Assembly (NCBI GenBank): GCA_022402445.1 | Contig: JAKRSF010000009.1 | Span: forward strand, 62,001 to 126,000 | DNA length: 64,000 nt | Origin: Cyanobacteriota bacterium | GTDB taxonomy: Bacteria; Cyanobacteriota; Cyanobacteriia; CACIAM-69d | Direction: 5' to 3' | In this document: positions 24,731 through 50,198 of the stretch, in pieces | Layout of the letters: each line of letters begins with the position of its first letter | Numbering within the stretch: position 1 is the stretch's first letter | Notes under the pieces: generated by a model | Told to the model about the DNA's origin: nothing | The model's input: only the letters and a program-made list of their open reading frames with translations | Database searches by the model: none | Program-made: the position numbers and the translations under genes

Positions 24731-24837
<107 letters not shown>

Positions 24838-25493: not shown

Positions 25494-26564
25494 CTACTCC
25501 TCAAACGCCCGCCGCAGATCGTGCATGGTCATCCACAGGCGGTAGATGCGCTCATGGACATAGAGGCTGTGCCCCAGCATTCGGGCGATCACGGCGCTGT
25601 CTTTTTTGCCCAGCCAGTAGATCGCATAGGCATGGCGTAGGTCGTAGGGAGCAAAGGGGCAACCGGCGCGGCGGAATGCGGTGGTGACCCGGTGGCCCAA
25701 GGCGGAATTGTTAGGGCCGCTGCAATCGGGGCGGACGATCGCGGCAAGTTCCCAGTCTTCAAACCACCGCAGGCTGCGGGGATAGGCGATCCGCAGTTTG
25801 CCGGTTTTGCTCTGGGCTGATATTTCGAGCCAGGGGGGATCGATCGCGCGGGCCAAAAACACTTCATGGGGCCGCAGACCGTAGGCGGCGATCGCACCGT
25901 AAACCCATCGCCATTCCGGTTCTTTGAACAGCCGCCGCGCGGCCTCAATTTCGGCGGCGCTGGGCAGGATTCGGGGCGCGGCCATGGCGGGACCGTAGCG
26001 GCCCTGGTATTGCCGCACATCCACCGGGCAGCGGGCAAAGTCTGCCAGGGCTTGAAATGCACGGGCCATGCGTTGCCGCGATCGCGTGTCCGGCTCCGTC
26101 AGCCGTAGCAGGGTTTGGGTCAGGATCTCGGGGGTGAGGGGTTCCGGTAGGGGCAATCGCTTCAGGGGCCGGTAGTAGTCAATTTCCCAGGTGGTGAGGG
26201 TTTTGGGGGTGCGGCGGCGACGGTTGAAGTAGAACTGCTCAAATTCGGCGATCCAGTCGGCGATCGCGCGCTTTTCTGCCCTTGTCCCCCAGTTTTCCCA
26301 CTGGAAGGAACCCCCCAGAATTTCCCGCGATAGGCGACGGGCCAAGCGTTCGGCGGCGCGGATCGCATCGACGGTGGCAGGAAACCCGAGGGCGATCGCG
26401 CGGGTTTTGCTCAGGCCGGCGGGCTCCCCTGGCTTGGGGGGGAGGGGTGCCGTGAGGCTGACAGCTCGAGTTTTGGCGCGCCAATCGACCTTGATCCGGG
26501 CGATCGCGCCATCACGTTTCAGGCGACCGTTGGCCGATCGCAGTTCAAGTTCTGGGTCTGGCAT
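25494..26564 (-). CDS. Tyrosine recombinase (element integrase)
   Basis: A 356-residue protein. The C-terminal catalytic domain shows the first Arg in YGLRPHEV, a Lys in the beta-hairpin (SKTGKLR), box II as YDLRHAYA (Tyr where His is more usual), MLGHS with the second His, and the nucleophile Tyr in ERIYRLW. The N-terminal part (TPKTLTTWEIDYYRPLKRL) fits an arm/core-binding SAM-like domain. It is adjacent to the tRNA-Phe attL and co-directional with the methyltransferase. It is expected to catalyse integration/excision at the 76-bp core. Confidence 0.93.
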   Translation of the reverse strand: MPDPELELRSANGRLKRDGAIARIKVDWRAKTRAVSLTAPLPPKPGEPAGLSKTRAIALGFPATVDAIRAAERLARRLSREILGGSFQWENWGTRAEKRAIADWIAEFEQFYFNRRRRTPKTLTTWEIDYYRPLKRLPLPEPLTPEILTQTLLRLTEPDTRSRQRMARAFQALADFARCPVDVRQYQGRYGPAMAAPRILPSAAEIEAARRLFKEPEWRWVYGAIAAYGLRPHEVFLARAIDPPWLEISAQSKTGKLRIAYPRSLRWFEDWELAAIVRPDCSGPNNSALGHRVTTAFRRAGCPFAPYDLRHAYAIYWLGKKDSAVIARMLGHSLYVHERIYRLWMTMHDLRRAFEE

Positions 26565-26589
26565 GATGGGGGTGTGAATTAGTGGCGGG

Positions 26590-27593: not shown

Positions 27594-27616
27594 AGTGGTG
27601 TGTTCTCTGGGAAAGC

Positions 27617-27977
27617 GATCAACATGATCAACAAAATCGCTGGATGGCTTACGGGGCGCGGCGTTGACCCTGTTGATCGTGCGATCAACATCGATCAACA
27701 CGATCAACATTGATCAACAAATCTGTGAAGAAATGGCTGAAACCTTTGCGGGGTAAGTGTTGCCGCTGATTTTGGCCGTGCCAACACTGGCGATGGGGGC
27801 GGGGCGGCAGCGCGAGACCCCAGAATCCCAGTAAGCCCCGCTACGCTTGCGTTTGCGGCGTTTCTGCTGGAGTCTGCGGGCGGTTGTTGATCATGTTGAT
27901 CGTTGTTGATCGCACGATCAACAGGGTCAACGGCTGACGGGGCGGGCGATTCGGGCAATGTGTTGATCATGTTGATC
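27617..27977. repeat. Iteron unit X: inverted pair of TGTTGATC arrays
   Basis: Thirteen exact copies of TGTTGATC/GATCAACA are present. Array b' starts at 27617, 27626, 27671 (inverted), 27683, 27693, 27702 and 27712. Array a' starts at 27885, 27894, 27904, 27916 (inverted), 27961 and 27970. Spacings are 9-45-12-10-9-10 and, mirrored, 9-10-12-45-9. Each array contains a 20-bp dyad. Degenerate half-sites (GTTGACCC, GGGTCAAC) also occur. Not CRISPR: spacers are 1-4 bp and there are no cas genes. Likely protein-binding iterons (inference). Confidence 0.92.
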
Positions 27978-27980
27978 ACT
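27828..27980 (-). pseudogene. Duplicated remnant of the primase 3' end
   Basis: Read on the minus strand, this stretch encodes INMINTLPESPAPSAVDPVD followed by RAINNDQHDQQ. It aligns with the C-terminus of the adjacent primase (IDMIDKTAETPATPDVNPVD, then RVIDNDRQDRQ). DNA similarity continues to the position of the primase stop, where TTACTGA has become TTACTGG. No start codon or upstream part of the gene is present. It marks a tandem duplication of about 415-425 bp that created iteron units X and Y. Confidence 0.8.
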
Positions 27981-28030
27981 TCTCCAGAGTCGGGGCAACA
28001 GGCGATGGTTTGTTGTTCTCTTAGGAAAAC

Positions 28031-28402
28031 GATCGACATGATCGACAAAATCGCTGTATCGCTTTCCGTGCTTGGGTTTGAGTGTGTCGATCGCATGATC
28101 GACAGTGATCGACATGATCGACAGCGATCGACAAAACAGGTGTGAAATAGCTAAAATGCTTACAGGCTAAGGGTTGTGGCGATCCAATAGCCAAGATTTC
28201 GGGGGCGGGGATTCGGGCGGTGTCGATCGCGTTTTGCGTGGGGCGATATCGTCAGTAAGACCCGCCCCGTCTACGTTTCGGGCGTTTCTCGCTGGATTTG
28301 TCGATCATTTGTCGATCCTGTCGATCGTTGTCGATCACGCGATCGACAGGGTTAACGTCAGGCGTGGCGGGCGTTTCGGCGGTTTTGTCGATCATGTCGA
28401 TC
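28031..28402. repeat. Iteron unit Y: inverted pair of TGTCGATC arrays
   Basis: Fourteen exact copies of TGTCGATC/GATCGACA form two arrays. Array b starts at 28031, 28040, 28085 (inverted), 28097, 28107, 28116 and 28126. Array a starts at 28299, 28310, 28319, 28329, 28341 (inverted), 28386 and 28395. A lone copy sits at 28221. Array b has exactly the spacing of b' in unit X; array a mirrors it. Array a lies inside the coding 3' end of the primase gene. All copies differ from unit X at the same base (C for T). Confidence 0.93.
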
Positions 28403-30972
28403 GCTTTGCTAGAAGAAATCGGAACCGACAGCACCCCATCGGCAAATGTGCAGCCAGGGATGGTGTTGCAGATGGCCTCGAATCGCTCCCGCACATGGGC
28501 AGCCTTGAGGTTTGAGCGCCGCAGGATGGACCGCTGGCATTCCCTCACGGTGATTTGCCCGCCCTTCGCTTCAGCAGCCTTATAGATTTTGAACAGTTGC
28601 CCCGTCAGGGGGTGGCCTTCGGTCTCTTCGCTGTAGGCTTGCACCAACAGAAATTGGCCACAGTAGAACTCGCTGAGGTTGGCGGCCCGTTCGGCGGTGT
28701 CGGTGCCGATCGCGGTGGGGAACTCGGTGGTGTTGTCCCCCAAGGCCCATTCAACGCAATGGAGCCACAGGGCCAGCCGGGGCATGTAGCTGCACTGTTT
28801 CCCCAGGAAGAACGCAAACGCGGGATTGGATTCTTGATACTTGAGGTATCCCCGCCGGTAGCGCTCCCACTGGCGACGCCAGATCGCCCCCGCCCCGGTG
28901 CTGAAGGTGAGGACGCAGTTGGGCACCCGTCGCAATTGGCGGTAGAGGTGATCGATGGAGCCGTAGATATCCACGGTCACGTCGGACCATTCGGCGAAAT
29001 TGTCCGGCAGGGATGGGCGCGCTGGCAGAAACCGCGACAGCAGCCCGTCCGGGTCATCTACCAGGGCGAAATGTTTGGCGGCCAATTTCGGCTGCAATCC
29101 CCCGGCGATGTTGAGGGTTTGGCCCTTGAGTCGTAGGGAGCCCGAGCGATCGCTGTATTCCTTCCTGATGGCTAGGGGTTTGTTCCATGCCGTCAAAAGC
29201 AACTGGCGGCTATTGCCCTTGCCGGAGCCTTTATATTGATCCAGCCCGGAAAATAGGCCCGCTAATTCGTCCTTAACCCAGCATGAGCCTGAGTTTGGGG
29301 GGTTGTCGGCTAAGCGCTTTAGGATGGCTTCCATTTCCCCCTCGTTCAGGACGTAGGTTCGGCGGTTGCCGATCATCTCCTCCCGGAAGACCTTGGGGTT
29401 GGCCGTGCTTTCAAAATTCTCGGCCTTCTCCTGGGGTTTCATGGCTTCCCAGGCTTGGGCGATCGCCTCCAGTTCCGCTTCACATTTCTCGATGCGGGCG
29501 TCTTCGGCGTCCTGCATGGCGTACAGGGGCGCAAAAATTGCATCTTGCGCCGCTGATTTGCCGCTGCTGGGGGGTGATACGTCGTTGGTCCAGAAGATTG
29601 GGCTCTCGATCCAATCGTCCTGGCTGGCGTGGCCTTTTTTGGCGATGACCTGGACCCGGCCGCCGAGGATGACGCCACAGGCGGGGAGTAGGTTTTGCAG
29701 CAGGCGGATCGGGTCGATGCGATCGCTCTGGGCTTTGGTGGTGAAGGCGCGGGCGAGGGCGTCGGGGAGGATGCCGTGGGGGTCGAAGGGTTTGCTGGCG
29801 CGATCAATGAGCGATCGCAACTCCAGGGAGTCCCGATCAAGGCGATCGCGCTCTTCCCGCTCCCGCTGGGTGGCTTCGATGAGGCGGCGGATGGATTGCT
29901 CGGTGCGATCGCTGGCGGCGGCGAGGCGGGGGATTTCCATCTCCATCTCGCTGTCGCTGGCGTCGAGGATGCGATCAATCTCCCGCCGCAAGTCCTCTAG
30001 GGATAGGGTGTCTGGGGAGGTTGTGGCGCTAGGGGTGGGGTCTGGGGTCCGGGGGGTGGTGTCGGGCCGCTGGGGTTCTAGGTTGCCCAGAATGTCGTCG
30101 GGTGTGGCTCCAGCGGCCAGCCAGTCGGCAATGTCGAGCCCCTTATCTCTGGGTAGGGATGCCTCGCTCCAGTCGAGGTCGGGCCATGGGTAGAGCCATT
30201 GGGCGTCGGGGTGATCGGCGGCGATCGCGCGGGCATATTTCAGGCCGTTTTTGTCCCGGTCGGGCACGATGACGATCCGGGCCCTGGCGAAATCCTGGCT
30301 GTAGTCGCCATAGCTGCCGTAGGCCCCGCCGCCGCCGATGGTGGTGGTGGCATGGAACCCCAGGGCAGCGAGGGCATCGGCACAGGGTTCGCCCTCGACC
30401 CAAAAGATCAGTTCACCGGCGGCGGCGGCTTTGGTGAGTTCGTGGTAGCGGAAGGGGGCGATCGCCTGTTTGAGGGGATCTTTGGTGGCGTCGTCCACCT
30501 GTCCGCCCTTGCGCCATGCGGTGTTGCCGATCCAATATTCTTGCCAGATGGTGCGCTTGCCGGTGCCGTCGTCAATGCGGCGGGTGCGGATCAGGGGGTT
30601 GCCCTGGCGATCGCTGTAGTGCCAGACGCGATCGCCCTTGGGCCGGATGGTTTTTTCGGTGGGGATGGGCCACCGGCTGGTGGCGGCGGGGGGCATGGGT
30701 GGGGCCGGTGGTCTGGGGGCCGGTCGGGGGCGGCGGCGCTTGGGTGGGCGATCGCCGTCGGGGGCGTTGGGATTCACCGGGGGGTTGATGGCATCGCGGA
30801 TGGCTTTTTTATGGGCCTCATCGTCGGGATAGTCCCAGCACTGCCATTTCCCGTCTTTGGTGCTGATCTTCAGGTTGCCGCCGTCGCACACGGGGCAATT
30901 GGCAACAATCTGGGTCCGGGTCTGTTTGGTGATCTCCAGATTGTCGAGGTGATCGAGGATGTTGAAGGTCAT
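28252..30972 (-). CDS. TOPRIM/DUF3987 primase-helicase
   Basis: A 906-residue protein. The N-terminal zinc-finger-like region has CPVCDGGNLKISTKDGKWQC. The TOPRIM domain is seen as ELIFWVEGEPCADALAALGF with PDRDKNG (E and DxD). The DUF3987 P-loop domain has FWTNDVSPPSSGKSAAQDA and a Walker B-like CWVKDELAGLFSGLDQY. The C-terminal 40 residues are encoded by iterons and rich in I/D/R/Q. Such proteins replicate phage satellites, plasmids and tycheposon-type elements. ATG 30972 forms ATGA with the upstream stop, indicating translational coupling. Confidence 0.88.
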   Translation of the reverse strand: MTFNILDHLDNLEITKQTRTQIVANCPVCDGGNLKISTKDGKWQCWDYPDDEAHKKAIRDAINPPVNPNAPDGDRPPKRRRPRPAPRPPAPPMPPAATSRWPIPTEKTIRPKGDRVWHYSDRQGNPLIRTRRIDDGTGKRTIWQEYWIGNTAWRKGGQVDDATKDPLKQAIAPFRYHELTKAAAAGELIFWVEGEPCADALAALGFHATTTIGGGGAYGSYGDYSQDFARARIVIVPDRDKNGLKYARAIAADHPDAQWLYPWPDLDWSEASLPRDKGLDIADWLAAGATPDDILGNLEPQRPDTTPRTPDPTPSATTSPDTLSLEDLRREIDRILDASDSEMEMEIPRLAAASDRTEQSIRRLIEATQREREERDRLDRDSLELRSLIDRASKPFDPHGILPDALARAFTTKAQSDRIDPIRLLQNLLPACGVILGGRVQVIAKKGHASQDDWIESPIFWTNDVSPPSSGKSAAQDAIFAPLYAMQDAEDARIEKCEAELEAIAQAWEAMKPQEKAENFESTANPKVFREEMIGNRRTYVLNEGEMEAILKRLADNPPNSGSCWVKDELAGLFSGLDQYKGSGKGNSRQLLLTAWNKPLAIRKEYSDRSGSLRLKGQTLNIAGGLQPKLAAKHFALVDDPDGLLSRFLPARPSLPDNFAEWSDVTVDIYGSIDHLYRQLRRVPNCVLTFSTGAGAIWRRQWERYRRGYLKYQESNPAFAFFLGKQCSYMPRLALWLHCVEWALGDNTTEFPTAIGTDTAERAANLSEFYCGQFLLVQAYSEETEGHPLTGQLFKIYKAAEAKGGQITVRECQRSILRRSNLKAAHVRERFEAICNTIPGCTFADGVLSVPISSSKAIDMIDKTAETPATPDVNPVDRVIDNDRQDRQMIDKSSEKRPKRRRGGSY

Positions 30973-31235
30973 TCCGGTGCCCCCCCATCCCAGTCGGTGT
31001 TTTCGCTGTGGCTGACGGGCGAAAGGTCGTGGACGACCAGGGAGGTGACCCACACGATCGCGCGGACGATGCCCTTGTGGTTGGTCTGGCTGCCCTGGTG
31101 TTCGATCGCGTACTTCACGGCGTCATGGGGGTGCCCTTCGCGGGGCCAGAGTCCGGCGGTGAGGGCGATCGCCATCCTCATGGATTCCATCTTGGTGAGG
31201 GTGACGATGATGGGGGTGGCGGGATGCAAATTCAT
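30969..31235 (-). CDS. Hypothetical element protein
   Basis: An 88-residue protein starting MNLHPATPIIVTLTKMESMRMAIALTAG. A short hydrophobic stretch (GIVRAIVWVTSLVVHDL) precedes an acidic tail ENTDWDGGAPE. No family is recognised. Its start and stop both form ATGA overlaps with neighbouring genes, strong evidence that it is translated in the primase operon. Confidence 0.7.
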   Translation of the reverse strand: MNLHPATPIIVTLTKMESMRMAIALTAGLWPREGHPHDAVKYAIEHQGSQTNHKGIVRAIVWVTSLVVHDLSPVSHSENTDWDGGAPE

Positions 31236-32255: not shown

Positions 32256-32489
32256 CTAGGCCACCTCCGCAGGGGCGACGGCGTTGTGCAGCACGTAGGC
32301 CAAACGCTCACGGGTGGGTTCATCAATCTCGATCAACTGACCGCCATCATGGACGGCCAGATACAGACGCAGGGCTTCGGACATCACCTGGGATTGGGTG
32401 ATCGTTTGGGCGGCGCAGTGAATGTTGAGCGCCGTTCGCAAACTCGCGGGAAACGCCCGAAGGTGAAGGGTTATCAGGTTTTCGTTCAT
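32256..32489 (-). CDS. Small ribbon-helix-helix-like protein
   Basis: A 77-residue protein. ITLHLRAFPASLRTALNIHCAAQTITQSQVMSEALRLYLAV has the strand-helix-helix layout of RHH DNA-binding proteins, with basic/polar residues in the first strand. It is the first gene of the leftward primase operon and faces a divergent regulator, so it may be an autoregulator or copy-control protein (inference). A TGATTCAC motif lies on the same strand 23 bp upstream of its ATG. Confidence 0.65.
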   Translation of the reverse strand: MNENLITLHLRAFPASLRTALNIHCAAQTITQSQVMSEALRLYLAVHDGGQLIEIDEPTRERLAYVLHNAVAPAEVA

Positions 32490-32547
32490 GGTTTTCTGGG
32501 GAATGAACTAGGTGAATCAGCGGCGGGGGTGACCGCTGGTATCAAGC

Positions 32548-32601
32548 GGTCTCAATGTAGCCATGTCAACCATGATTACACTAGGCGTCTACATTGAGAC
32601 C
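32548..32601. promoter_or_regulatory. Operator-like inverted repeat in divergent intergenic region
   Basis: Perfect 13-bp arms GGTCTCAATGTAG (32548-32560) and CTACATTGAGACC (32589-32601) are separated by 28 bp. They sit between the leftward primase operon and the rightward regulator gene. The centre-to-centre distance of 41 bp is about four helical turns, so two sites could be bound on the same face. It is a strong candidate for the operator of the adjacent regulator. Confidence 0.8.
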
Positions 32602-32651
32602 AGTCAAGGGGTGGATTTTTGTTAAATTTGCCCCTTGATTCGGTTGGTTGC

Positions 32652-33296
32652 ATGGTTGCCGTTCCATCCCAGAAAGACCTGACAGACAAGGGGCTTGAGC
32701 TTCTGGGTCAAATTTTTCACTTCTACCGGTGGGAGCTTCGCGGCCTTTCACAGCGGGCCTTTTGTCAGGAAATCAACACATATTGGAATTTTCAGGTTGC
32801 AAGTCATCAGGTGATTTCAACCATCGAAAACGGCTCGATTCGCGGCGGTGTGCGGTCGGTCCCGATGCAACTGCTGTCTTTTGGCTATCCCTTCACCTAC
32901 TGGCCTAGCCGTGGCCGTGCCTTCACGCTGCATGAATTGCTCGCCGTCGGCCTAGGGGAGATTGAGCCCGTCCTGTCCGTCGCCCCCGTCTCGCAGATCG
33001 ATGCCTTTGGCCGGTGGATCGTCCGCGACGGCGTAACCCCCGAGGAACAGATCGCCATGGTGGGGGACCGGGGGATCCCACCCGAAAGGTGGGCAGAAAT
33101 CAAACGGGGCGGCAAAATGCTCGCCCATGAAGCGATCGCCCTACACGATTTGGTGGACCTCAGCGAAGACTCATTTCTCATGCTGTGCGGCCATTTCCCG
33201 CGCATGGGGCGGCATTGGGAGCCCCCCGATAACGAGCCCCCAGCGCTGCCCCTGGAATGGTCGCCGCCAGTTTTTAGCGCCGATACCCTGAGCTAG
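32652..33296 (+). CDS. XRE-like HTH transcriptional regulator
   Basis: A 214-residue protein. The N-terminus IFHFYRWELRGLSQRAFCQEI...ASHQVISTIENGS has an XRE-type helix-turn-helix arrangement. The middle (FTLHELLAVGLGEIEPVL, YPFTYWPSRG) and an acidic C-terminus are unrecognised. It is divergent from the primase operon across an inverted-repeat operator, the layout of a phage-type repressor/activator switch. ATG 32652 is chosen over upstream non-ATG starts. It overlaps the convergent gene by 4 bp. Confidence 0.68.
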   Translation: MVAVPSQKDLTDKGLELLGQIFHFYRWELRGLSQRAFCQEINTYWNFQVASHQVISTIENGSIRGGVRSVPMQLLSFGYPFTYWPSRGRAFTLHELLAVGLGEIEPVLSVAPVSQIDAFGRWIVRDGVTPEEQIAMVGDRGIPPERWAEIKRGGKMLAHEAIALHDLVDLSEDSFLMLCGHFPRMGRHWEPPDNEPPALPLEWSPPVFSADTLS

Positions 33297-33700
33297 TGGT
33301 CAATCTGCGAGCCAAACACCACTCGGTAATCGGCCCCATACATCTGCACTACCTGAATCAGCTTGGCAACAAACTTAGCGGGCACCCGCACCGGCACCCC
33401 ATCCGGCCCCATCGCCCAGGTGTATGCCTGATAGCGGTAATCCTCAAGCCGTCCATCCTGCTTCAGGGCCGTCTTCAGGCGGTGCAGCTCCTCCCGGTCC
33501 CACATCCGGCGCAGGTTGCGGCCCCGCGTGAGCCACCAGGCTTGGGGCACCGGCTGCCCCGGAGACGCCAGAAATTGCGACGCCGCCACCAGGGTATCGG
33601 TGTCGTTGTGGGCGATGGTGGCCGACACCTGGGCATCCCAAACCTTTTTCGCCAGTTCCCCAGGCGACGCGATCGCGCGGCTATGGTCAGAAACAAACAT
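33293..33700 (-). CDS. Hypothetical element protein
   Basis: A 135-residue protein starting MFVSDHSRAIASPGELAKKVWDAQ. It is mixed helical with basic residues (RGRNLRRMWDREELHRLKTALKQDG) and ends VVQMYGADYRVVFGSQIDH. It could bind nucleic acid on charge alone; no family is recognised. Convergent with the regulator gene. The 190 bp between it and the next gene on this strand holds a terminator but no gene. Confidence 0.55.
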   Translation of the reverse strand: MFVSDHSRAIASPGELAKKVWDAQVSATIAHNDTDTLVAASQFLASPGQPVPQAWWLTRGRNLRRMWDREELHRLKTALKQDGRLEDYRYQAYTWAMGPDGVPVRVPAKFVAKLIQVVQMYGADYRVVFGSQIDH

Positions 33701-33841
33701 GCGGCATCATCTCCCAAAACCCGCAGAATCACCCCAATGGCCCAAACTAGCGCACCTACGATCCGAGTGCTAGCCTAGGGGTGGTTTCCCCGAACTGCGA
33801 GACCATTGCCACTGCGGGCTAATCGCGCCAATTCTCCAGAC

Positions 33842-33877
33842 AGAACCCCCACCGGATCAATCCTCGGTGGGGGTTCT
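33842..33877. terminator. Hairpin terminator after DUF29 gene
   Basis: Perfect 13-bp arms AGAACCCCCACCG (33842-33854) and CGGTGGGGGTTCT (33865-33877) with a 10-base loop lie just downstream of the leftward DUF29 gene. There is no long T-run on either side, but the plus-strand exit is TCCATTTTG, so it may act bidirectionally. Confidence 0.7.
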
Positions 33878-33892
33878 CCATTTTGATCCCGC

Positions 33893-34318
33893 CTAGCCCT
33901 CCAGATCCGCCGTGAGCGCCCAATCCAGATCAAAGGGCGGATCAATGGGGAAATCCTCCTCATCTAGGGCCGTCTCGCGGATCGCCAGCAGCCGCCCATC
34001 CCCATACCCCTCAAGGAACGCCTCCGGCAGATAAGACTTCAAGCTCGGGTTTTGCTTCATCAGCCGCGCCACCTGACGCCGTTGTTCCTGGATCGTCGTG
34101 CGCCAAGACTTACCGCGCAGCTCCGGCTGATAGCGCCACTTCAGCAAATGCCCCAGCAGCACCGCCAACCGATTCACCAGCTCCCGGCGTTCCTGACGGC
34201 CCATGCTCTCAATTTCCTCTGCAAGATTCTCCCAATCCAGTTGTGGCGGTCGCCATTCCCGCAGAATCGCCCCCTGCTGTTGGGTCCAAGCGTAGAAATC
34301 CGCCTCATAGTCGCTCAT
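33893..34318 (-). CDS. DUF29 family protein (element-borne copy)
   Basis: A 141-residue protein. YEADFYAWTQQQGAILREW, LAEEIESMGRQERRELVNRLAVLLGHLLKWRYQPELRGKSWRTTI and PEAFLEGYGDGRLLAIRETAL are DUF29 signatures, a family abundant in cyanobacteria and of unknown function. It is a clear paralogue of the chromosomal DUF29 gene at 50540, just outside the element. Its ATG overlaps the preceding gene's stop. Confidence 0.88.
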   Translation of the reverse strand: MSDYEADFYAWTQQQGAILREWRPPQLDWENLAEEIESMGRQERRELVNRLAVLLGHLLKWRYQPELRGKSWRTTIQEQRRQVARLMKQNPSLKSYLPEAFLEGYGDGRLLAIRETALDEEDFPIDPPFDLDWALTADLEG

Positions 34319-34680
34319 GACAGAAACTCCAAAAGCGCCGATTTATTGGCCCTGGCTGCCCCGATCATGCCCCGCGCCGCCGCCAGTTTCCGCAGTTGCG
34401 CCACATTCATCGACTGAATATCCCCATCAACCGACGGGGGTGCCGTTTCGACCGACGGCGGAGCGATCGCCGGACGCAGCGACTTTAAATAAGCAACCGG
34501 GTCAGGGCTCGCATCCGCCGCCCTGGCAATCTCCAAAATCGCCCCATGGAGCGCCTCCGGTAACCGCAACATCTTCGTTGGCAGCATCTTCCATTTCGGC
34601 TTCTGCCAGCCAGGGGGCGGCTCCTTCCCAGCGCCGTACCATCCAGTCAGCTTCTTAACCGAATTAGCTGAATCAGCCAT
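34315..34680 (-). CDS. Hypothetical protein with Rho-N/SAP-like C-terminal helix pair
   Basis: About 121 residues. KLTGWYGAGKEPPPGWQKPKWKMLPTKMLRLPEALHGAILEIAR suggests a basic strand-helix segment. The C-terminus MNVAQLRKLAAARGMIGAARANKSALLEFLS resembles a Rho-N/SAP-type nucleic-acid-binding helix pair. Probably a small DNA-binding or regulatory protein. Two TGAATCAACTACGC repeats (34704-34717, 34725-34738) lie directly upstream of its ATG. Confidence 0.6.
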   Translation of the reverse strand: MADSANSVKKLTGWYGAGKEPPPGWQKPKWKMLPTKMLRLPEALHGAILEIARAADASPDPVAYLKSLRPAIAPPSVETAPPSVDGDIQSMNVAQLRKLAAARGMIGAARANKSALLEFLS

Positions 34681-34703
34681 AACCACCAATCCCCATATTT
34701 AAT

Positions 34704-34738
34704 TGAATCAACTACGCTCTAAGATGAATCAACTACGC
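34704..34738. promoter_or_regulatory. Paired 14-bp direct repeats upstream of 34680 gene
   Basis: TGAATCAACTACGC occurs at 34704-34717 and 34725-34738, start to start 21 bp (two helical turns). On the minus strand each reads TTGATTCA, a form of the motif found before many genes in this element. Likely operator for the leftward 34680 gene. Confidence 0.7.
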
Positions 34739-34739
34739 C

Positions 34740-35050
34740 ACCAATGCCATCACCCCACCGGAGCGATCGCCCTCCATTCCGTCCTCCAGTCCTGGGTAAA
34801 TAGATAGACAACAGCAGACAAATCCTCACCGGGGTTCCCCCGTCCTACTTGGCATCACTCTCACCGGGGCTCCCCCGTCGTCTTGAGCGGTCCTGCTGTG
34901 TGACTTGATGATATTGCCGATTCAGCTACACGTCAAGCTGATTCACCTACTTATCTCCATCTTGTTTCCCTTGACAGATTTAAATGATTCAGCTAGACTC
35001 GCAGAGTCTAGCCAAGGGGGCCGCCAACCACCCCTTTTAGGTGATTCAGC
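34740..35050. other. Structured non-coding region
   Basis: No gene is supported. Two 20-bp near-repeats (34825-34844 and 34860-34879) each contain a CGGGG-loop-CCCCG hairpin. They are enclosed by ACAGCAG (34810-34816) and CTGCTGT (34893-34899), giving a branched structure if transcribed. Further right are a sigma-70-like promoter, a 9-bp-arm dyad (34992-35012) and AAGGGG...CCCCTTTT (35014-35038). It is a candidate small RNA, leader or single-strand origin. Confidence 0.5.
34971..34999 (+). promoter_or_regulatory. Sigma-70-type promoter overlapped by dyad
   Basis: TTGACA (34971-34976), a 17-bp spacer and TAGACT (34994-34999). The spacer contains TGATTCAG. The -10 lies in the left arm of a perfect dyad, GCTAGACTC-GCA-GAGTCTAGC (34992-35012), so a dimeric repressor bound there would block initiation. 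The transcript would run antisense to the 35473 gene or end at the nearby hairpin. Confidence 0.6.
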
Positions 35051-35110
35051 ATTACAGCGATACAGAATATAAGGAAAGCAATCCCGCCCTCGATGCCGGG
35101 ACGGTGCTCC

Positions 35111-35473
35111 CTACTCCGTAGTTGATTCAGCATTGGGGACGGCATAGCCCATCGCCTCAAGCAGCCCCACCAGTCGCGCGGTTAATAATTCTGTGGCCGC
35201 GCGATCGCCTCCCGCCCGCACCATTTCCTGAATCGCCCCCACCAGCAGCAGCACCGCCCCCCGGTCCACCTCCGCCGGTTTGGTGCCGTCTTTTTCAGCA
35301 CCATCAATTACATTTCTTACCGCCTGATTCATTGCCGCCTTAGCCAGCGCATTAATTTGGTCGCTCAAACCACCGCCCGGACGGGATTCCAGCCACACTC
35401 GCACCTCATCATCGAGGTACACCGTAGCCCTAGAACGGTTCAGTTTCGGGCGGCCCCGCCCCCGGTTTGCCAT
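35111..35473 (-). CDS. Hypothetical DNA-binding-like protein with AT-hook-like start
   Basis: About 120 residues starting MANRGRGRPKLNRSRATVYLDDEVRVWLESR. RGRGRPK is AT-hook-like, and TVYLDDEVRVWLES-GGLSDQINALAK resembles a ribbon-helix-helix. An acidic/helical C-terminus follows. A plausible plasmid-type regulator. ATG 35473 is chosen because upstream codons lack a ribosome site and look non-coding. Confidence 0.6.
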   Translation of the reverse strand: MANRGRGRPKLNRSRATVYLDDEVRVWLESRPGGGLSDQINALAKAAMNQAVRNVIDGAEKDGTKPAEVDRGAVLLLVGAIQEMVRAGGDRAATELLTARLVGLLEAMGYAVPNAESTTE

Positions 35474-35575
35474 CGCTTTATCCAAAATTGACCCCAGAAA
35501 ACTAGCATATTCGACGCCATGAAGATAGATTCTGGCGTCATTTTCCACGAATCTAAGATTTATTGGCGTTGGGTA

Positions 35576-35605
35576 TTGACATTAGCTGACGTCTTAAAAT
35601 AATAT
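35576..35605 (+). promoter_or_regulatory. Promoter of the rightward operon
   Basis: TTGACA at 35576-35581, an 18-bp spacer, and TAATAT at 35600-35605 in the most AT-rich patch of the area. It is 60 bp upstream of the first gene (35665) and is followed by a TGATTCAC motif at 35643-35650 in the presumed leader. It probably drives the nine-gene rightward operon to 40471. Confidence 0.7.
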
Positions 35606-35664
35606 CTGTGACATAGAAAAGGGGGCCGACAAGGCCCGCCGCTGATTCACCCAACGATCAAACC

Positions 35665-36108
35665 ATGCAAATTGCACTTAACGACGGACGGACGATCGAC
35701 ACCACCACGGCCACCAAGGCCGAACTGCTCGACGCCGCCAACGCCCTGGGCATGACCACCGCCTACCTTTGCCAATTTGGCGATCTGCGGTTCCGGGAGC
35801 CCTGGCAACGGGCGGTGGAATCGCTGGCCACCGAACGGGCCAACCAACCCGAGCTACAACCCAGCCCCATGGCCGACAGCCCCGACGCGATCGCCGCCTA
35901 TGAAGGATTTCGTCGGGCCACCTACAACGCCCTGCGGAAACACTTCGACGCCACCCGCGCCAGCGACTTCGCCACCGCCCTGGCCCGCCGCCAGTTCAAC
36001 ATGCCCCTGTCCGCCGCAGAACAGGAACTCATCACCCGCTATCGCGAGTGGTATGCCCGCAAGCAACTGGCAGGACGCGAACCAGAACGCGAACTAGCCA
36101 CCGCCTAG
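35665..36108 (+). CDS. Hypothetical element protein
   Basis: A 147-residue protein starting MQIALNDGRTIDTTTATKAELLDAANALGMTTAYLCQFGD. The N-terminal part looks like a small DNA-binding or SAP-like helical fold, and the C-terminus is helical and charged (ATALARRQFNMPLSAAEQELITRYREWYARKQ). First gene of the rightward operon. Its stop sits 1 bp before the first 11-bp repeat array. Confidence 0.62.
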   Translation: MQIALNDGRTIDTTTATKAELLDAANALGMTTAYLCQFGDLRFREPWQRAVESLATERANQPELQPSPMADSPDAIAAYEGFRRATYNALRKHFDATRASDFATALARRQFNMPLSAAEQELITRYREWYARKQLAGREPERELATA

Positions 36109-36109
36109 C

Positions 36110-36254
36110 GGTTCCTATCCGGTTCGTTTCGGGGTTCGCTTCAGGTTCTCATCCGGTTCCTATCAACCCCGAAACGCCCACACCGCCACTAATTCACCCG
36201 GTTCCAATCCGGTTCTCGTTTGGTTCCTATCCGGTTTCAATCCGGTTCTTATCA
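36110..36254. repeat. Two blocks of five 11-bp repeats abutting a start codon
   Basis: Consensus GGTTCCTATCC. Block 1 starts at 36110, 36121, 36133, 36144 and 36155 (spacing 11, 12, 11, 11). Block 2 starts at 36200, 36211, 36222, 36233 and 36244 (spacing exactly 11). A TAATTCAC motif (36190-36197) lies just before block 2. The last repeat ends on the A of the ATG of the next gene, so any protein bound to DNA or mRNA here would mask translation or transcription. Confidence 0.92.
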
Positions 36255-36790
36255 TGGCTGACTCCATTCACCAGACACACACCTACGGCGTGGCCCACGT
36301 CGCCACCGCCGCCGGGATCACCGCCACCGGGATCCGCAAAGTTCTCATCGATCGCATCAAACGCATCGCCCCCGACGCGATCGCCACTTTGGGCGAAAAC
36401 GGGCGCGGGGTGATCTACGGCTTCACCGCCGAAGCTCTGGAAATCGCCGAATCCTATCGCAACCGGGGCATCCTCACCCCGGACCAATGGGAGGCCCAAT
36501 ATATCCAGCCCGTACAGGCTGAGGTTTGCCCCGAAACCACCGGTTCCGCCCTGGCGGTTCTGCCAAAGTATTTCCGCGATCAGGCGGACGTAGCCCTTGA
36601 GGTGGCCCGCGATGCCATTTGGGACTACCAAAACTCCATCGATGAGGAATTTCAAGCCGAACTACAGGCCGCCTATACCCAGGGCGAGCGCGAAGGGGGG
36701 ATGCTCCTAAGCGCCAGAATCGCGGGCCGTCGGGCCGGTCTGGGAAAGCTGCAAGGCGATCGGGCGGCGGCTGCCCAGGGTGGCGCGTAA
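36254..36790 (+). CDS. Hypothetical element protein with HTH-like N-terminus
   Basis: A 178-residue protein. THTYGVAHVATAAGITATGIRKVLIDRIKRIAP is HTH-like (MerR/phage-antirepressor style). The rest is helical, with a coiled-coil-like segment YQNSIDEEFQAELQAAYTQGEREGG and a basic tail RIAGRRAGLGK. Its ATG is contiguous with ten 11-bp repeats, suggesting it may be an autoregulated DNA-binding protein (inference). Confidence 0.62.
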   Translation: MADSIHQTHTYGVAHVATAAGITATGIRKVLIDRIKRIAPDAIATLGENGRGVIYGFTAEALEIAESYRNRGILTPDQWEAQYIQPVQAEVCPETTGSALAVLPKYFRDQADVALEVARDAIWDYQNSIDEEFQAELQAAYTQGEREGGMLLSARIAGRRAGLGKLQGDRAAAAQGGA

Positions 36791-36971
36791 TATGCCTGAG
36801 CCTCGCAACCCTGATCGGAGTGATCGGAGCGATCAGCCTGTGCATAAGCGCGGGATTGATCGGGAGATCCAATCCCAACACCTCGACCCCAACCTCCGGC
36901 GACGACTCACTCAGCAGCTACGCAACACCGGGGTACAACTCCCCGCGTCGTGGAAGCGATCCGACTGCTGA
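36780..36971 (+). CDS. Small basic protein (possible)
   Basis: A 63-residue frame overlapping the previous gene by 11 bp; ATG 36792 is an alternative start. It reads MPEPRNPDRSDRSDQPVHKR and ends LRRRLTQQLRNTGVQLPASWK: highly charged, with an amphipathic C-terminal helix. Another frame in the same place encodes a hydrophobic segment (LATLIGVIGAISLCISAGLIG) but has only a GTG start. Five GATC sites cluster in 36813-36869. Coding status is uncertain. Confidence 0.35.
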   Translation: MARNMPEPRNPDRSDRSDQPVHKRGIDREIQSQHLDPNLRRRLTQQLRNTGVQLPASWKRSDC

Positions 36972-37018
36972 CTGTAGGCTCGACCGCCGCAACTGCAGCT
37001 AGATGATTCACCTTTACC

Positions 37019-37046
37019 GCCCCCGGTCTGGGGGCTCCCATCCATG
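37019..37046 (+). promoter_or_regulatory. Translation leader with hairpin, copy 1
   Basis: A 28-bp segment with a CCCCC-loop-GGGGG hairpin followed by CTCCCATCCATG, ending at the ATG of the 37044 gene. It differs from 37399-37426 at only two bases, both in the loop, so the stem is kept. TGATTCAC (37004-37011) precedes it. No Shine-Dalgarno sequence is visible, making an RNA-structure role in translation plausible. Confidence 0.6.
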
Positions 37047-37355
37047 CCTAGAGATTTGTTGGAAATCCTGACCGCAGACGAGACGATCACCGCCGAAATG
37101 GACACGCTTCAGGAGCGGTTCAGCCAACTGAAAAACCAAAGGGAGGCGCTGGCCCGTGAGGCTACTGAAGAAATCAAGCGGCTCAACCTATCGCCGGATA
37201 GGGCTTTTGGGTCTGATGAGTATTGGGCGGTTGTGATCGTTCGTGGTGTGGCGATTCTGGTGAACGTTTACGACCGCCCATCGCGAGAAACACCGCCTTT
37301 GGAGCGCTTGAATTTGCAAACGTTCCCGACGGACCCAGACGCTTTCCCTTCTTAG
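37044..37355 (+). CDS. Small coiled-coil element protein
   Basis: A 103-residue protein starting MPRDLLEILTADETITAEMD. A heptad-rich region LQERFSQLKNQREALAREATEEIKRLNL is followed by a beta segment YWAVVIVRGVAILVNVYDRPS. No family is recognised. It lies in the rightward operon and shares a near-identical leader with the next gene. Confidence 0.6.
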   Translation: MPRDLLEILTADETITAEMDTLQERFSQLKNQREALAREATEEIKRLNLSPDRAFGSDEYWAVVIVRGVAILVNVYDRPSRETPPLERLNLQTFPTDPDAFPS

Positions 37356-37398
37356 GACAAAGATCGCCCCTGTTCCCTGCCACTAATTCACATCACCG

Positions 37399-37426
37399 GC
37401 CCCCGCCCTGGGGGCTCCCATCCATG
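37399..37426 (+). promoter_or_regulatory. Translation leader with hairpin, copy 2
   Basis: The second copy of the CCCCC-loop-GGGGG hairpin plus CTCCCATCCATG, ending at the ATG of the 37424 gene and preceded by TAATTCAC (37384-37391). See copy 1 at 37019 for the comparison. Confidence 0.6.
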
Positions 37427-37627
37427 AACAGCTTCGACCAACGCCTACTGATTGCGATCGCCGGGATTCTTGTCGCTGGCGTCTGGGTTCGCACCGTCCT
37501 GATGCCCATGCGCAGCCCCGCCAGAACCCAAGAAATCATCATCGAAGGGGTTAACGGCCAGATGGTCACCCCCGCGCCCGTCGCTCCCGTCGAACTCCCC
37601 TGCGAACAGGAGGCGATCATCCTATGA
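37424..37627 (+). CDS. Small single-span membrane protein
   Basis: A 67-residue protein. MNSFDQRLLIAIAGILVAGVWVRTVLMP has one transmembrane helix near the N-terminus. The rest (EIIIEGVNGQMVTPAPVAPVELPCEQEAIIL) is short and polar. Its stop overlaps the next gene's ATG (ATGA). In size and layout it resembles minor membrane proteins of membrane-containing phages or of plasmid partition/transfer systems; no homology is recognised. Confidence 0.65.
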   Translation: MNSFDQRLLIAIAGILVAGVWVRTVLMPMRSPARTQEIIIEGVNGQMVTPAPVAPVELPCEQEAIIL

Positions 37628-38280
37628 GCGCGATCGTCCCCATCAATCGCGGGCAGTTGCAGCAAGCCTACGGCGACAGCCCCGCCGCCCTCCCCTCCCA
37701 TCGCACATGGGCACAGGATCGGGTGAATTGGGCCATGCAGCAGATTGCAGCCGGTGCCGCCGAGCGGGTGATCGAGGATTTGCAGACCCAGCAGGCCGCG
37801 ATCGCCCGCCACTTCGAGAGCCGCCTGAACCAATTGGGCCTCACCGCCCAGCGGCAACAGGAGCTTTATAGCGCCCTGGCTGAAAATCAGGCCGCGATCG
37901 CCGCCGCCGTCGGCACCCTCACCACAGCCATCCACCAACAAACCGCCGCGATTCAGGACCACCGGCAAACCATGCAAGCGCACGGAATGGCCGTCTTGGA
38001 CAATTCCAAGCGACTGGACCAACTGACCCAGGAAATGCGCCGATTGGCCGCTGCAACCGAGAACGCCGCGATCGTTCAGCAGGCCCAGGCGGACTTGCGA
38101 CATCTCCCCCCTTCGACCGGCGGACGGGTGGATCACCACCACCACCACAGCGACAGCATGGGCTATGTAGGGCCGGTGATCGCCGCCGCCATGGCTGCCA
38201 CCATCGTTGGCGCAGCAGTCTGGGGGCCGTCTAACGTTCCCCAACAGACCCAAATCCGCGTCCAGATGGGAGGCCAGTAG
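37624..38280 (+). CDS. Coiled-coil protein with C-terminal transmembrane helix
   Basis: A 218-residue protein. A long helical, Gln/Ala-rich region (QQAAIARHFESRLNQLGLTAQRQQELYSALAENQAAIAAAVG and onward) ends in a His cluster (VDHHHHHSDS). A single TM helix follows (YVGPVIAAAMAATIVGAAVWG) with a short tail. The predicted topology is a cytoplasmic coiled coil on a membrane anchor. Co-translated with the 37424 gene. Confidence 0.7.
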   Translation: MSAIVPINRGQLQQAYGDSPAALPSHRTWAQDRVNWAMQQIAAGAAERVIEDLQTQQAAIARHFESRLNQLGLTAQRQQELYSALAENQAAIAAAVGTLTTAIHQQTAAIQDHRQTMQAHGMAVLDNSKRLDQLTQEMRRLAAATENAAIVQQAQADLRHLPPSTGGRVDHHHHHSDSMGYVGPVIAAAMAATIVGAAVWGPSNVPQQTQIRVQMGGQ

Positions 38281-38285
38281 AAGCC

Positions 38286-38516
38286 ATGACTGCCTCCTAT
38301 GACGAGTCCTACGTTGCCCAGCAAGTCAGGCTGGCGAAAACCCTTGCAGATCAAGGCCATGACCGGGGCGCTAGAGACGCCATGGCCCGCGCTCTCAGCG
38401 CAATCCTCCCCCACCAATGGCCTACCCCCGATCACGTTGCCGAGGCTGGCTACGACGACATACACCTCCTAACGCTTCTCTCCGCTCTCGGTTTTGACGA
38501 TCCCTCATCCCACTAA
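38286..38516 (+). CDS. Small hypothetical protein
   Basis: A 76-residue protein starting MTASYDESYVAQQVRLAKTLADQGHDRGARDAMARAL, helical and TPR-like in spacing, with an acidic C-terminus. No family is recognised. It sits 5 bp after the preceding stop within the operon and ends where the TAATTCAC motif of the next gene begins. Confidence 0.6.
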   Translation: MTASYDESYVAQQVRLAKTLADQGHDRGARDAMARALSAILPHQWPTPDHVAEAGYDDIHLLTLLSALGFDDPSSH

Positions 38517-38522
38517 TTCACC

Positions 38523-39236
38523 ATGACCTACACCACCAACGGCCACACCCCCGGCGCTGAGCAGCGCATCGCGATCGACCCCGCCACTGGCCTTGCTATG
38601 GGCTACGCTCCAGCAGAAAACAACGCCCCTTTGAACCTCCCGCCGCCGCCCAGCGAAGCAGCACCCCCGCCCCCTCCAGCACCCGCACCGGCTCCAGCGC
38701 CAGCACCCGCACCGGCTCCAGCGCCAGCACCCCCACCGGCCCCAGCACCAGCGCCCGCCGCATCCAAGCCCACCATCGGGCAACGGGTGGATAATTTCGC
38801 CAGCCGTCTCTCCAAGCCGAAACCGCCCCAGCCCGCCGCGATCGCCTCTACCAACACCGTTGAGGTGGAACTGGTGGGGCAGAAGGTGGAACGGCTCACC
38901 CGCGAGGTGGCGATCGAGGTGGACGCGACCTGGTGGGGGAACTGGGTTAACGAGCCCAGCGGTCGCATTGTGGCCGGTGCCCTGCTGGGGTGGGGATTAC
39001 GTCGGTGGATCCCCTGGCTTGCGGGGGCTGGCCTGTTCTCCGTGGCGTCCGGCGTCTCCCTTGGCGTGGCGATCATCATGCACGGCGATCGATTCGTGAG
39101 GCCCGCCACAGCCCAACGGGCAGGGGTGATCGTGATAATCGCCGCGATCGCCCTTCAAATCAGCCCGCCGCGCCCGAACTTCGCCATCCCCGAATGGCTC
39201 AACAATTTCCTGTATCCCCCAACCCAAGTCCGGTGA
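38523..39236 (+). CDS. Proline-rich membrane protein
   Basis: A 237-residue protein. Residues about 40-80 are an Ala-Pro repeat that would form an extended rod. A beta/coil segment (NTVEVELVGQKVERLTREVAIEVDATWWGNWVNEPSG) is followed by two or three TM helices (IVAGALLGWGLRRW, LAGAGLFSVASGVSLGVAIIM, AGVIVIIAAIALQI). An extended Pro-rich arm on a membrane base recalls TonB-like or phage-assembly proteins. It overlaps the ATPase gene by one base (TGATG). Confidence 0.7.
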   Translation: MTYTTNGHTPGAEQRIAIDPATGLAMGYAPAENNAPLNLPPPPSEAAPPPPPAPAPAPAPAPAPAPAPAPPPAPAPAPAASKPTIGQRVDNFASRLSKPKPPQPAAIASTNTVEVELVGQKVERLTREVAIEVDATWWGNWVNEPSGRIVAGALLGWGLRRWIPWLAGAGLFSVASGVSLGVAIIMHGDRFVRPATAQRAGVIVIIAAIALQISPPRPNFAIPEWLNNFLYPPTQVR

Positions 39237-40471
39237 TGAGCATCATTCAAATCCAAACCCAAGCCCATCAATGGGTGGGGGCGTGGCTATCGGCGGGCTT
39301 CACCCCGGATCGCATCCGCAAGGAAGCAGCGGCCCGAGAAATGCCAGAAGAGGCCCGCCGCGCGATCGCCGATGCCCTACTGGCCTACGCGGCGGATTGT
39401 GCGATCCGCCCCCAACATTCCCCGGAGGCGATCCGGGGGGCGCTGGCCCGGTTGGCAGCCGGTGGTCTCGATTTATCCGATCTGCGGCAATGGTGCCGCC
39501 AAAACCTTAACCGGGCCGATCTGGACGTGGCCGAAAGGCTGCTGAAAAACGAGGAATCCCGCCGCGCCGCCCTGCCCGCCGCCCGCCCTGACGCGATCGC
39601 CCCATGGTCCGTCCTGTTGCCCCAGGGCGATCGCTTCAAGCACGTCCTGATCTTGGGGTCCACCAACGGCGGCAAAACCTGCCTGACCGAATGGCTAGGG
39701 CACCAACAGCCCGGATTCGTGCGGGTGCTGACCACCAAGCGCAAGGCGACCCAGTGGAGGGGGATGGAGGTGATCGGCCACCCCCGCGATTACGCCGCCC
39801 TCAAGGTGGCATGGGAGGCGCTCATCTCCGAAATGGACCGCCGCCTAGGGTTGATCGACCACGCGGGTACGGCCTATCAGCACCTCAATGTGTTGGTGGA
39901 CGAATTGCCCGCTCAGGCGGCGAACCTGGGAAAAGATCATCAGCACTGGCTATCCACCCTGCTACGCGAGTCGCGAGAGTCCCTGATCCGGCTGTTCGTT
40001 TTGGTCCAGGGGGGGCAGTTGAAGACCATCGGGCTCGAAGGGGAAAGCGACCTTAAGGGATGCCTGCACTGGGTCCGATTGGGCAAATTCGCCCGCAGCC
40101 ATGCCCAAAAACTCTATCGCGATGGCCTGTGCGATCGCGCGGCCCTCGACTGGGTTTTACAGCAGCGCTACCCGGCCACGATTGACGACGCGATCGCGGA
40201 GGTGCCGGACCTCACCCACTGGCAACCGGGCACCGCGTCCCACACCTTCCCAAGCCCTTCCACTGCTGAAGCGTTCAGAAGCCACGGAAGCCCTGTGGTA
40301 GTAGGCGCTTCCACCATTTCGGTCCCTTCCCAGGAAGCCGACGTAGACCCGCAAAAGCTGCAAACGGTTCGGCTTTTGATGGGGTCGGGGGTCAGCAAAA
40401 CCCGCGCGATCGAGCAGGTGTTTGGCTGTTCTGGGGGCCGACAATTTCAGCGGATTTCGTCGCTGCTGTAG
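39236..40471 (+). CDS. P-loop ATPase (FtsK/HerA- or packaging-type)
   Basis: A 411-residue protein. An N-terminal helical region (about 1-130) precedes the ATPase core: FKHVLILGSTNGGKTCLTEWL (Walker A GSTNGGKT), HLNVLVDELP (Walker B) and RLFVLVQGGQLKTIGLEG (sensor-like). The C-terminus LQTVRLLMGSGVSKTRAIEQVFGCSG looks like a winged/HTH DNA-binding tail. It could pump DNA in virion packaging, conjugation or partition. Last gene of the membrane-protein operon, followed by a terminator. Confidence 0.75.
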   Translation: MSIIQIQTQAHQWVGAWLSAGFTPDRIRKEAAAREMPEEARRAIADALLAYAADCAIRPQHSPEAIRGALARLAAGGLDLSDLRQWCRQNLNRADLDVAERLLKNEESRRAALPAARPDAIAPWSVLLPQGDRFKHVLILGSTNGGKTCLTEWLGHQQPGFVRVLTTKRKATQWRGMEVIGHPRDYAALKVAWEALISEMDRRLGLIDHAGTAYQHLNVLVDELPAQAANLGKDHQHWLSTLLRESRESLIRLFVLVQGGQLKTIGLEGESDLKGCLHWVRLGKFARSHAQKLYRDGLCDRAALDWVLQQRYPATIDDAIAEVPDLTHWQPGTASHTFPSPSTAEAFRSHGSPVVVGASTISVPSQEADVDPQKLQTVRLLMGSGVSKTRAIEQVFGCSGGRQFQRISSLL

Positions 40472-50122: not shown

Positions 50123-50198
50123 CTGAAAATCCTCGTGTCGGCGGTTCAAGTCCGCCTCCTGGCATTCTCTAAAACCCATATCCCGCAAGGGTTTGAGC
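50123..50198. repeat. attR: 76-bp attachment core
   Basis: Identical to 24762-24837. It carries only the anticodon-loop-to-3' part of tRNA-Phe, without the first 31 nt, so it is not a second tRNA. It marks the right end of the element; beyond it the two flanks share only scattered bases. Confidence 0.95.

Follow-up and report, generated by a model that had tools for sequence, protein, structure and literature searches.

Palindromic and gene-start repeats private to an integrated cyanobacterial element, and their candidate role as element-wide operators

The 64,000-nucleotide stretch analysed here (the window, whose coordinates are used throughout) lies on contig JAKRSF010000009.1 of a Cyanobacteriota bacterium (assembly GCA_022402445.1), with a genome of 4.08 Mb in 13 contigs in which the HIP1 octamer GCGATCGC is dense. 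This density, together with the cyanobacterial plasmid relative described below, marks the genome as cyanobacterial. The window contains an integrated element of about 25.4 kb (unit 25,361 bp; 0.62% of the genome), seated in a tRNA-Phe gene (24731-24803) and flanked by 76-bp direct repeats, of which attL (24762-24837, plus strand) starts within the tRNA gene and attR (50123-50198, plus strand) is its exact copy. A tyrosine-type integrase gene (25494-26564, minus strand; phrog_1, 9e-9) and a DNA methyltransferase-like gene stand beside the tRNA gene, and further in the element encodes a DUF3987 primase/helicase (28252-31008), a weakly FtsK-like P-loop ATPase (39236-40471) and many small proteins. 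By the gene model made here, 13% of the element is noncoding. About 16 short repeated sites occur in it, most of them palindromic and near a control region at 34665-35133, the rest before genes, and we propose that they probably constitute an operator network specific to the element.

A preliminary description of this DNA had noted the motif TRATTCA(C/G) at many gene boundaries of the element. All of the sites that it listed were found, exactly in place or displaced by one base, although the list was incomplete, those at 26574, 33353 and 34668 (all minus strand) and at 34918 and 35123 (both plus strand) having been missed. The window has 8 copies of TRATTCAC where 2.2 would be expected, and none of 100 shuffles reached 8; all 8 copies lie inside the element and none elsewhere in the window, and 7 of them are fully noncoding. 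Genome-wide there are 86 copies, and the presence of 8 of these in the element has a binomial probability by area of 8e-8. The extended motif CCACTAATTCAC has four exact copies in the 4.08 Mb, all in the element, as are all six genome copies of CRCTRATTCAC (6e-14 by area, for a motif picked after being seen), each of which lies just upstream of a start codon and on the same strand as the gene. Since the motif had been chosen after sight, blind scans were added, and the HIP1 words that make up the bulk of the element's repeated k-mers were set aside. With HIP1-derived words excluded, CCACTAATTCAC was the sole 12-mer with at least four dispersed copies in the element, and CTAATTCACC ranked first among noncoding 10-mers when one mismatch was allowed. 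We conclude that the motif exists, that it is enriched and that this element alone carries it. The preliminary description had named equal frequency in gene interiors, in the chromosome and at element gene boundaries as its refutation, and the counts speak against that refutation.

The placement of the sites is less uniform than was first thought. Seven of the eight TRATTCAC copies do stand before a start codon on the strand of the gene, but the copy at 34939 does not. Nor do the sites at 34918 and 35123 or the two TGATTCAG copies (34985, 35042) hold such a position. All five are plus-strand sites in a stretch with a minus-strand gene on either side, 35123 being at the 3' end of one of these genes. 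Because they precede no start codon on their own strand, the element has two overlapping site types and not a single gene-boundary motif.

When the TGATTCA sites were aligned, the heptad turned out to form the centre of a palindrome of 15 bp, TAGNTGATTCANCTA, with the arms TAG one base 5' of the heptad and CTA one base 3' of it. The flanks had played no part in site selection; their matches to the two arms summed to 54 of 72, where the null maximum was 28.8 on average, and none of 2000 trials gave a value as high. At least four of the six arm bases are present in 10 of the 14 element copies of TGATTCA, compared with 6 of 128 copies in other fetched loci. A scan for the palindrome with up to three mismatches gave 15 matches where 4.8 were expected, 12 of them within 32.5-37.0 kb (32509-37014), and the palindrome half TGATTCANCTA has five exact copies in the genome, four of which are in the element.

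Eight palindromes fall in the control region, in or at the edges of the stretch between two minus-strand genes. From left to right they are 34665-34679 (one mismatch), which covers the first codons of gene 34315-34680; 34700-34714 and 34721-34735 (one mismatch each); 34914-34928 (two) and 34935-34949 (one); 34981-34995 (one); 35038-35052 (two); and 35119-35133 (two), over the 3' end of a gene for an AT-hook and ribbon-helix-helix (RHH)-like protein. The second and third sites are spaced 21 bp, or two helical turns, as are the fourth and fifth. A predicted leftward promoter (TTGACG-17-TATCAT, 34936 to 34908) has the site 34914-34928 in its -35/-10 spacer and 34935-34949 on its -35 box, and the predicted rightward promoter divergent from it (TTGACA-17-TAGACT, 34971 to 34999) has 34981-34995 in its spacer. 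Two further palindromes are at 33350-33364 (two mismatches), inside gene 33293-33700, and, as TAGATGATTCACCTT, at 37000-37014 (plus strand, one mismatch), in the gap preceding 37044-37355. Read on the plus strand, the central base of all 16 sites is A as far as about 34.8 kb and T from there on, and simple counting by hand puts the chance of such a single clean break at roughly 5e-4. The concentration of palindromes in one control region, their overlap with the spacers of predicted divergent promoters and the 21-bp pairs argue that this layout is an operator architecture.

The second site type comprises six gene-start sites of the form [GC]CCRCTRATTCAC, at 26574 and 32512 (minus strand) and at 35643, 36190, 37384 and 38514 (plus strand). 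Their consensus, GCCRCTRATTCAC, has its core in common with the palindromes, is asymmetric and is without palindromic arms; all six stand before a start codon and on the strand of that gene. On the minus strand, GCCACTAATTCACA (26573-26586) is 10 nt upstream of the integrase ATG (26564), and GCCGCTGATTCACC (32511-32524) is about 22 nt upstream of the ATG of a small RHH gene, where it overlaps a palindrome at 32509-32523 (two mismatches). On the plus strand, GCCGCTGATTCACC recurs at 35638-35651, downstream of a predicted promoter (35576-35605) and in the 5' leader of 35665-36108, and is a weak palindrome too (three mismatches). The gap preceding 36254-36790 contains GCCACTAATTCACC (36185-36198), a second GCCACTAATTCACA (37379-37392) precedes 37424-37627, and CCCACTAATTCACC (38509-38522) comes immediately before the ATG at 38523, with the TAA within it serving as the stop codon of gene 38286-38516. 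The sites at 32512 and 35643, exact matches to the gene-start form that also score as weaker palindromes, tie the two types together. For the seven start-proximal sites, the distances to the start codon are approximately 1, 10, 14, 22, 32, 32 and 56 nt. Within the rightward operon the gaps 36109-36253, 36972-37043, 37356-37423 and 38517-38522 each contain or adjoin a site, and the overlapping or 5-nt gene junctions are without any.

Other repeats accompany these leaders. About nine 11-bp direct repeats (CGGTTCYNATC), helix-phased, occupy 36109-36253 and flank the gene-start site 36190 on both sides. Two genes have a common 41-nt leader (37006-37046 and 37386-37426, 83% identical) that carries a GC-rich hairpin (CCCCC..GGGGG) directly upstream of the start codon, and CCGGGG/CCCCCG repeats like those of the leaders reappear at 34825-34879.

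Three proteins of the element are candidate regulators. The 77-residue RHH protein (32256-32489, minus strand) matches Pfam 56B_RHH with an E-value of 4e-5, below the cutoff, and among solved structures the closest to it, at E 0.21, is 2kel, a 56B protein and the archaeal virus repressor SvtR. The 214-residue protein encoded at 32652-33296 (plus strand) has, by eye, an XRE/cI-like helix-turn-helix at its N-terminus and no family match. The 120-residue protein encoded at 35111-35473 (minus strand), whose gene is bracketed by sites, combines an RHH-like start with an AT-hook (RGRP/RGRGRP), also recognised by eye, and has no convincing family match. Single-sequence structure models of two of the regulators, with pLDDT values of 55 and 35, were too poor for use. 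Neither family nor solved-structure matches among the candidates point to an L5-type repressor, with its N-terminal helix-turn-helix and stoperator domain. Between the divergent RHH and XRE-like genes there is a perfect 13-bp inverted repeat, GGTCTCAATGTAG/CTACATTGAGACC, with its halves 28 nt apart (32548-32601); GGTCTCAATGTAG could instead be the operator of the RHH or the XRE-like protein.

Adjoining the primase/helicase gene are two diverged copies of an iteron-like array (27605-28420), in one the units are TGTTGATC, and in the other TGTCGATC units take the corresponding positions, which looks like a concerted change of the unit. The array is a possible replication origin.

The element (24762-50198) apparently belongs to an undescribed plasmid- or virus-like family. 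Its ATPase has matches in 25 of 388 genomes of the class, its own genome counted, and some of the ATPase-bearing relatives also carry the integrase or the proteins o43284 or o45317. The o45317 protein is common to the element and a circular plasmid (20.8 kb) from Tolypothrix sp. PCC 7601 (L065, NZ_CP064893.1), and the ATPase, o43284 and o45317 also occur in other cyanobacterial loci (L056, L062, L063). Scans of viral_contigs and genome_contigs gave no close relatives of the ATPase, integrase, o45317, AT-hook/RHH-like or XRE-like proteins, and in the 388 class genomes the regulators had no more than weak matches. The motif was not similarly enriched in 20 distant loci related through the ATPase (25-42% identity), and a blind scan of nine related elements revealed no comparable start-associated repeat. 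The word AAAGCACCC in locus L060 was rejected as a counterpart of the motif, being mostly terminator sequence, as was a four-copy match in genome G100, a tandem repeat. In genomes of the same family CRCTRATTCAC occurs just as scattered single copies or, in genome G003, as contig-end repeats; there CACTAATTCAC is repeated 81-95 bases from many contig ends and is probably part of a repeated element that broke the assembly. Because repressor operators drift quickly, the absence of the motif from relatives neither supports nor refutes a function, yet it removes the strongest support that a function could have had.

We consider it likely that the sites form an element-specific operator network through which an element-encoded DNA-binding protein silences the element. 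A 15-bp palindrome that occurs in pairs two helical turns apart and covers divergent promoters is the kind of site used by a cooperative dimeric repressor, and the symmetry of TAGNTGATTCANCTA suggests a dimer here as well. Such a dimer, bound to the eight sites over 34.67-35.13 kb and cooperatively so at the pairs spaced 21 bp, would keep transcription from starting at the two promoters there, leftward and rightward. The same protein would also bind the asymmetric sites, by way of the common half-site RATTCAC and an upstream GCCRC contact, in the gaps that precede four rightward-operon genes, the RHH gene and the integrase gene. Bound at these positions in a stoperator-like manner, it would deal with transcripts that leak through or with internal promoters, and the integrated element would stay quiet. 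We infer that the binder is the 35111-35473 protein, the 77-residue RHH protein or the 32652-33296 protein, that it represses rather than activates, and that the gene-start sites act as roadblocks. A transcription roadblock appears to be the most economical reading of these sites, given the precedent of the mycobacteriophage stoperators (PMC9283540). That one protein uses both site types, with palindromes stopping initiation and oriented asymmetric sites stopping elongation or translation, is conceivable, but we hold this part of the proposal to be doubtful.

Several observations weigh against silencing through such a network. The gene-start sites have no palindromic arms, and a single protein for both types is an assumption. 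The sites 34918 and 34939 are oriented opposite to the predicted leftward promoter that they overlap. Promoter predictions are few and barely above those in shuffles (4 against 2.1, standard deviation 1.5), and because of this the overlap of sites with the predicted divergent promoters is suggestive. The candidate regulators have neither a confident family match nor a confident model, and, the same motif being found in no related element, comparative support is lacking.

The main rival for the gene-start sites is control at the RNA level, in which GCCRCTRATTCAC would be a translation signal (a leader bound by a protein or by the ribosome), comparable to the start-associated sequences of Cluster K phages, for genes that lack a Shine-Dalgarno sequence; the palindromes would then be a separate operator set. 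The preliminary description had also raised a translational signal, and the six gene-start sites are compatible with one: all are on the mRNA strand, 1-56 nt upstream of a start codon, the core is mostly predicted to be unpaired (0.72-0.96 in six of the seven start-proximal sites), and Shine-Dalgarno pairing is missing from five of the seven genes that the motif precedes (mean -1.9 versus -5.3 kcal/mol). The idea fails for the control-region palindromes, which contain the same core and precede no gene. The wide range of distances to the start codon is not that of a fixed ribosome signal, two of the seven genes do pair with the anti-Shine-Dalgarno sequence at -8.4, and starts without a Shine-Dalgarno sequence are common in cyanobacteria. 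On balance we regard an RNA-level signal as unlikely. Pairing of the motif with 16S rRNA was also considered, and the 16S rRNA model RF00177 had no match in the genome assembly. Less probable still is that the gene-start sites are element-specific promoter elements, forming an alternative -10-like box through which a regulon of the element would be activated. They are directional and upstream of starts, and no sigma-70-like promoter is predicted near 36190, 37004, 37384 or 38514; however, the 38514 site ends 1 nt upstream of its ATG, a conserved second box at fixed upstream spacing was not seen by eye, and no sigma factor was recognised in the element, and we think this explanation very improbable.

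The cluster at 34.67-35.13 kb could also be the replication origin or partition site (iterons or a centromere) of an excised form, bound by the AT-hook/RHH-like protein, with the scattered sites secondary. Its 15-bp repeats are clustered beside an RHH-like gene, and the Tolypothrix relative is a circular plasmid. Yet no ParA-like partner turned up in the element, the array by the primase/helicase gene is the better origin candidate, some of the sites overlap predicted promoters, and an origin or centromere would not account for the gene-start sites; we judge it quite improbable, though less so than a promoter box. The third suggestion of the preliminary description, a cassette-boundary recombination sequence for gene shuffling, agrees with the location of sites in intergenic gaps and otherwise has no support: rearranged, duplicated or inverted cassettes bounded by the motif were not seen, eight sites lie within one noncoding control region, no relative has the motif, and palindromic arms suit operators. 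It is scarcely credible. The operator network remains the best supported of the guesses, with its genome-private sites, 15-bp palindrome, 21-bp pairs and overlap with two predicted divergent promoters.

Among known systems, the stoperators of L5 and other Cluster A mycobacteriophages all repeat one asymmetric 13-bp sequence, and the repressor that binds it is monomeric (PMC9283540). Like them, the sites described here are repeated many times throughout a single element, both at promoters (here predicted) and in short gaps between genes, and are rare or absent in the host chromosome (PMC9283540). Stoperator orientation correlates with transcription (PMC9283540); here all six gene-start sites agree, whereas 34918 and 34939 face away from the direction of the predicted leftward promoter. 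In contrast to stoperators, the main set is a 15-bp palindrome, and asymmetric sites number just six. The host, moreover, is cyanobacterial, no related repressor was recognised, and the element has neither a recognised tailed-phage structural gene nor any convincing phage structural match. The start-associated sequences of Cluster K mycobacteriophages are asymmetric repeats of about 13 bp found before the starts of a subset of genes, in one orientation, and contain the Shine-Dalgarno sequence AGGAG, typically 3-7 bp from the start (PMC3203893). The gene-start sites resemble them in being asymmetric, just before start codons, in one orientation and essentially missing from the host chromosome (PMC3203893), but have no Shine-Dalgarno sequence and lie at distances of 1-56 nt; nor do start-associated sequences have a palindromic operator counterpart of the same core (PMC3203893). 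The element-wide distribution also recalls plasmid RK2, on which promoter-proximal and distal operators for the global repressors KorA and KorB coordinate many operons, KorB being a ParB-type cytidine triphosphate (CTP) clamp with a role in partition (PMC11790492). Unlike RK2, the element showed no ParB/KorB-type protein, KorA-like protein or ParA partner among the Pfam and PHROG matches of those of its proteins that were searched. The traits of a general phage or plasmid dimeric repressor network, namely palindromes at (predicted) promoters, cooperative spacing and privacy to the element, are all present.

Because defining features of stoperator systems and of start-associated systems were looked for and proved absent here, the element is classed as neither. 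Control by element-wide operators is of a familiar type, the setting proposed for it here is one not described before, and its asymmetric branch is interesting but hypothetical. Genome-wide silencing of the stoperator type has been described mostly in actinobacterial phages, and we know of no described case for cyanobacterial mobile elements. If the reading of two site types for one protein is true, a plasmid- or virus-like element of a cyanobacterium would have evolved stoperator-like silencing on its own, independently of the mycobacteriophages. The sites mark the control region of the element and point to three candidate regulators, through which its switch from silent to active could be studied; they could also be put to use as a private regulatory system in cyanobacteria.

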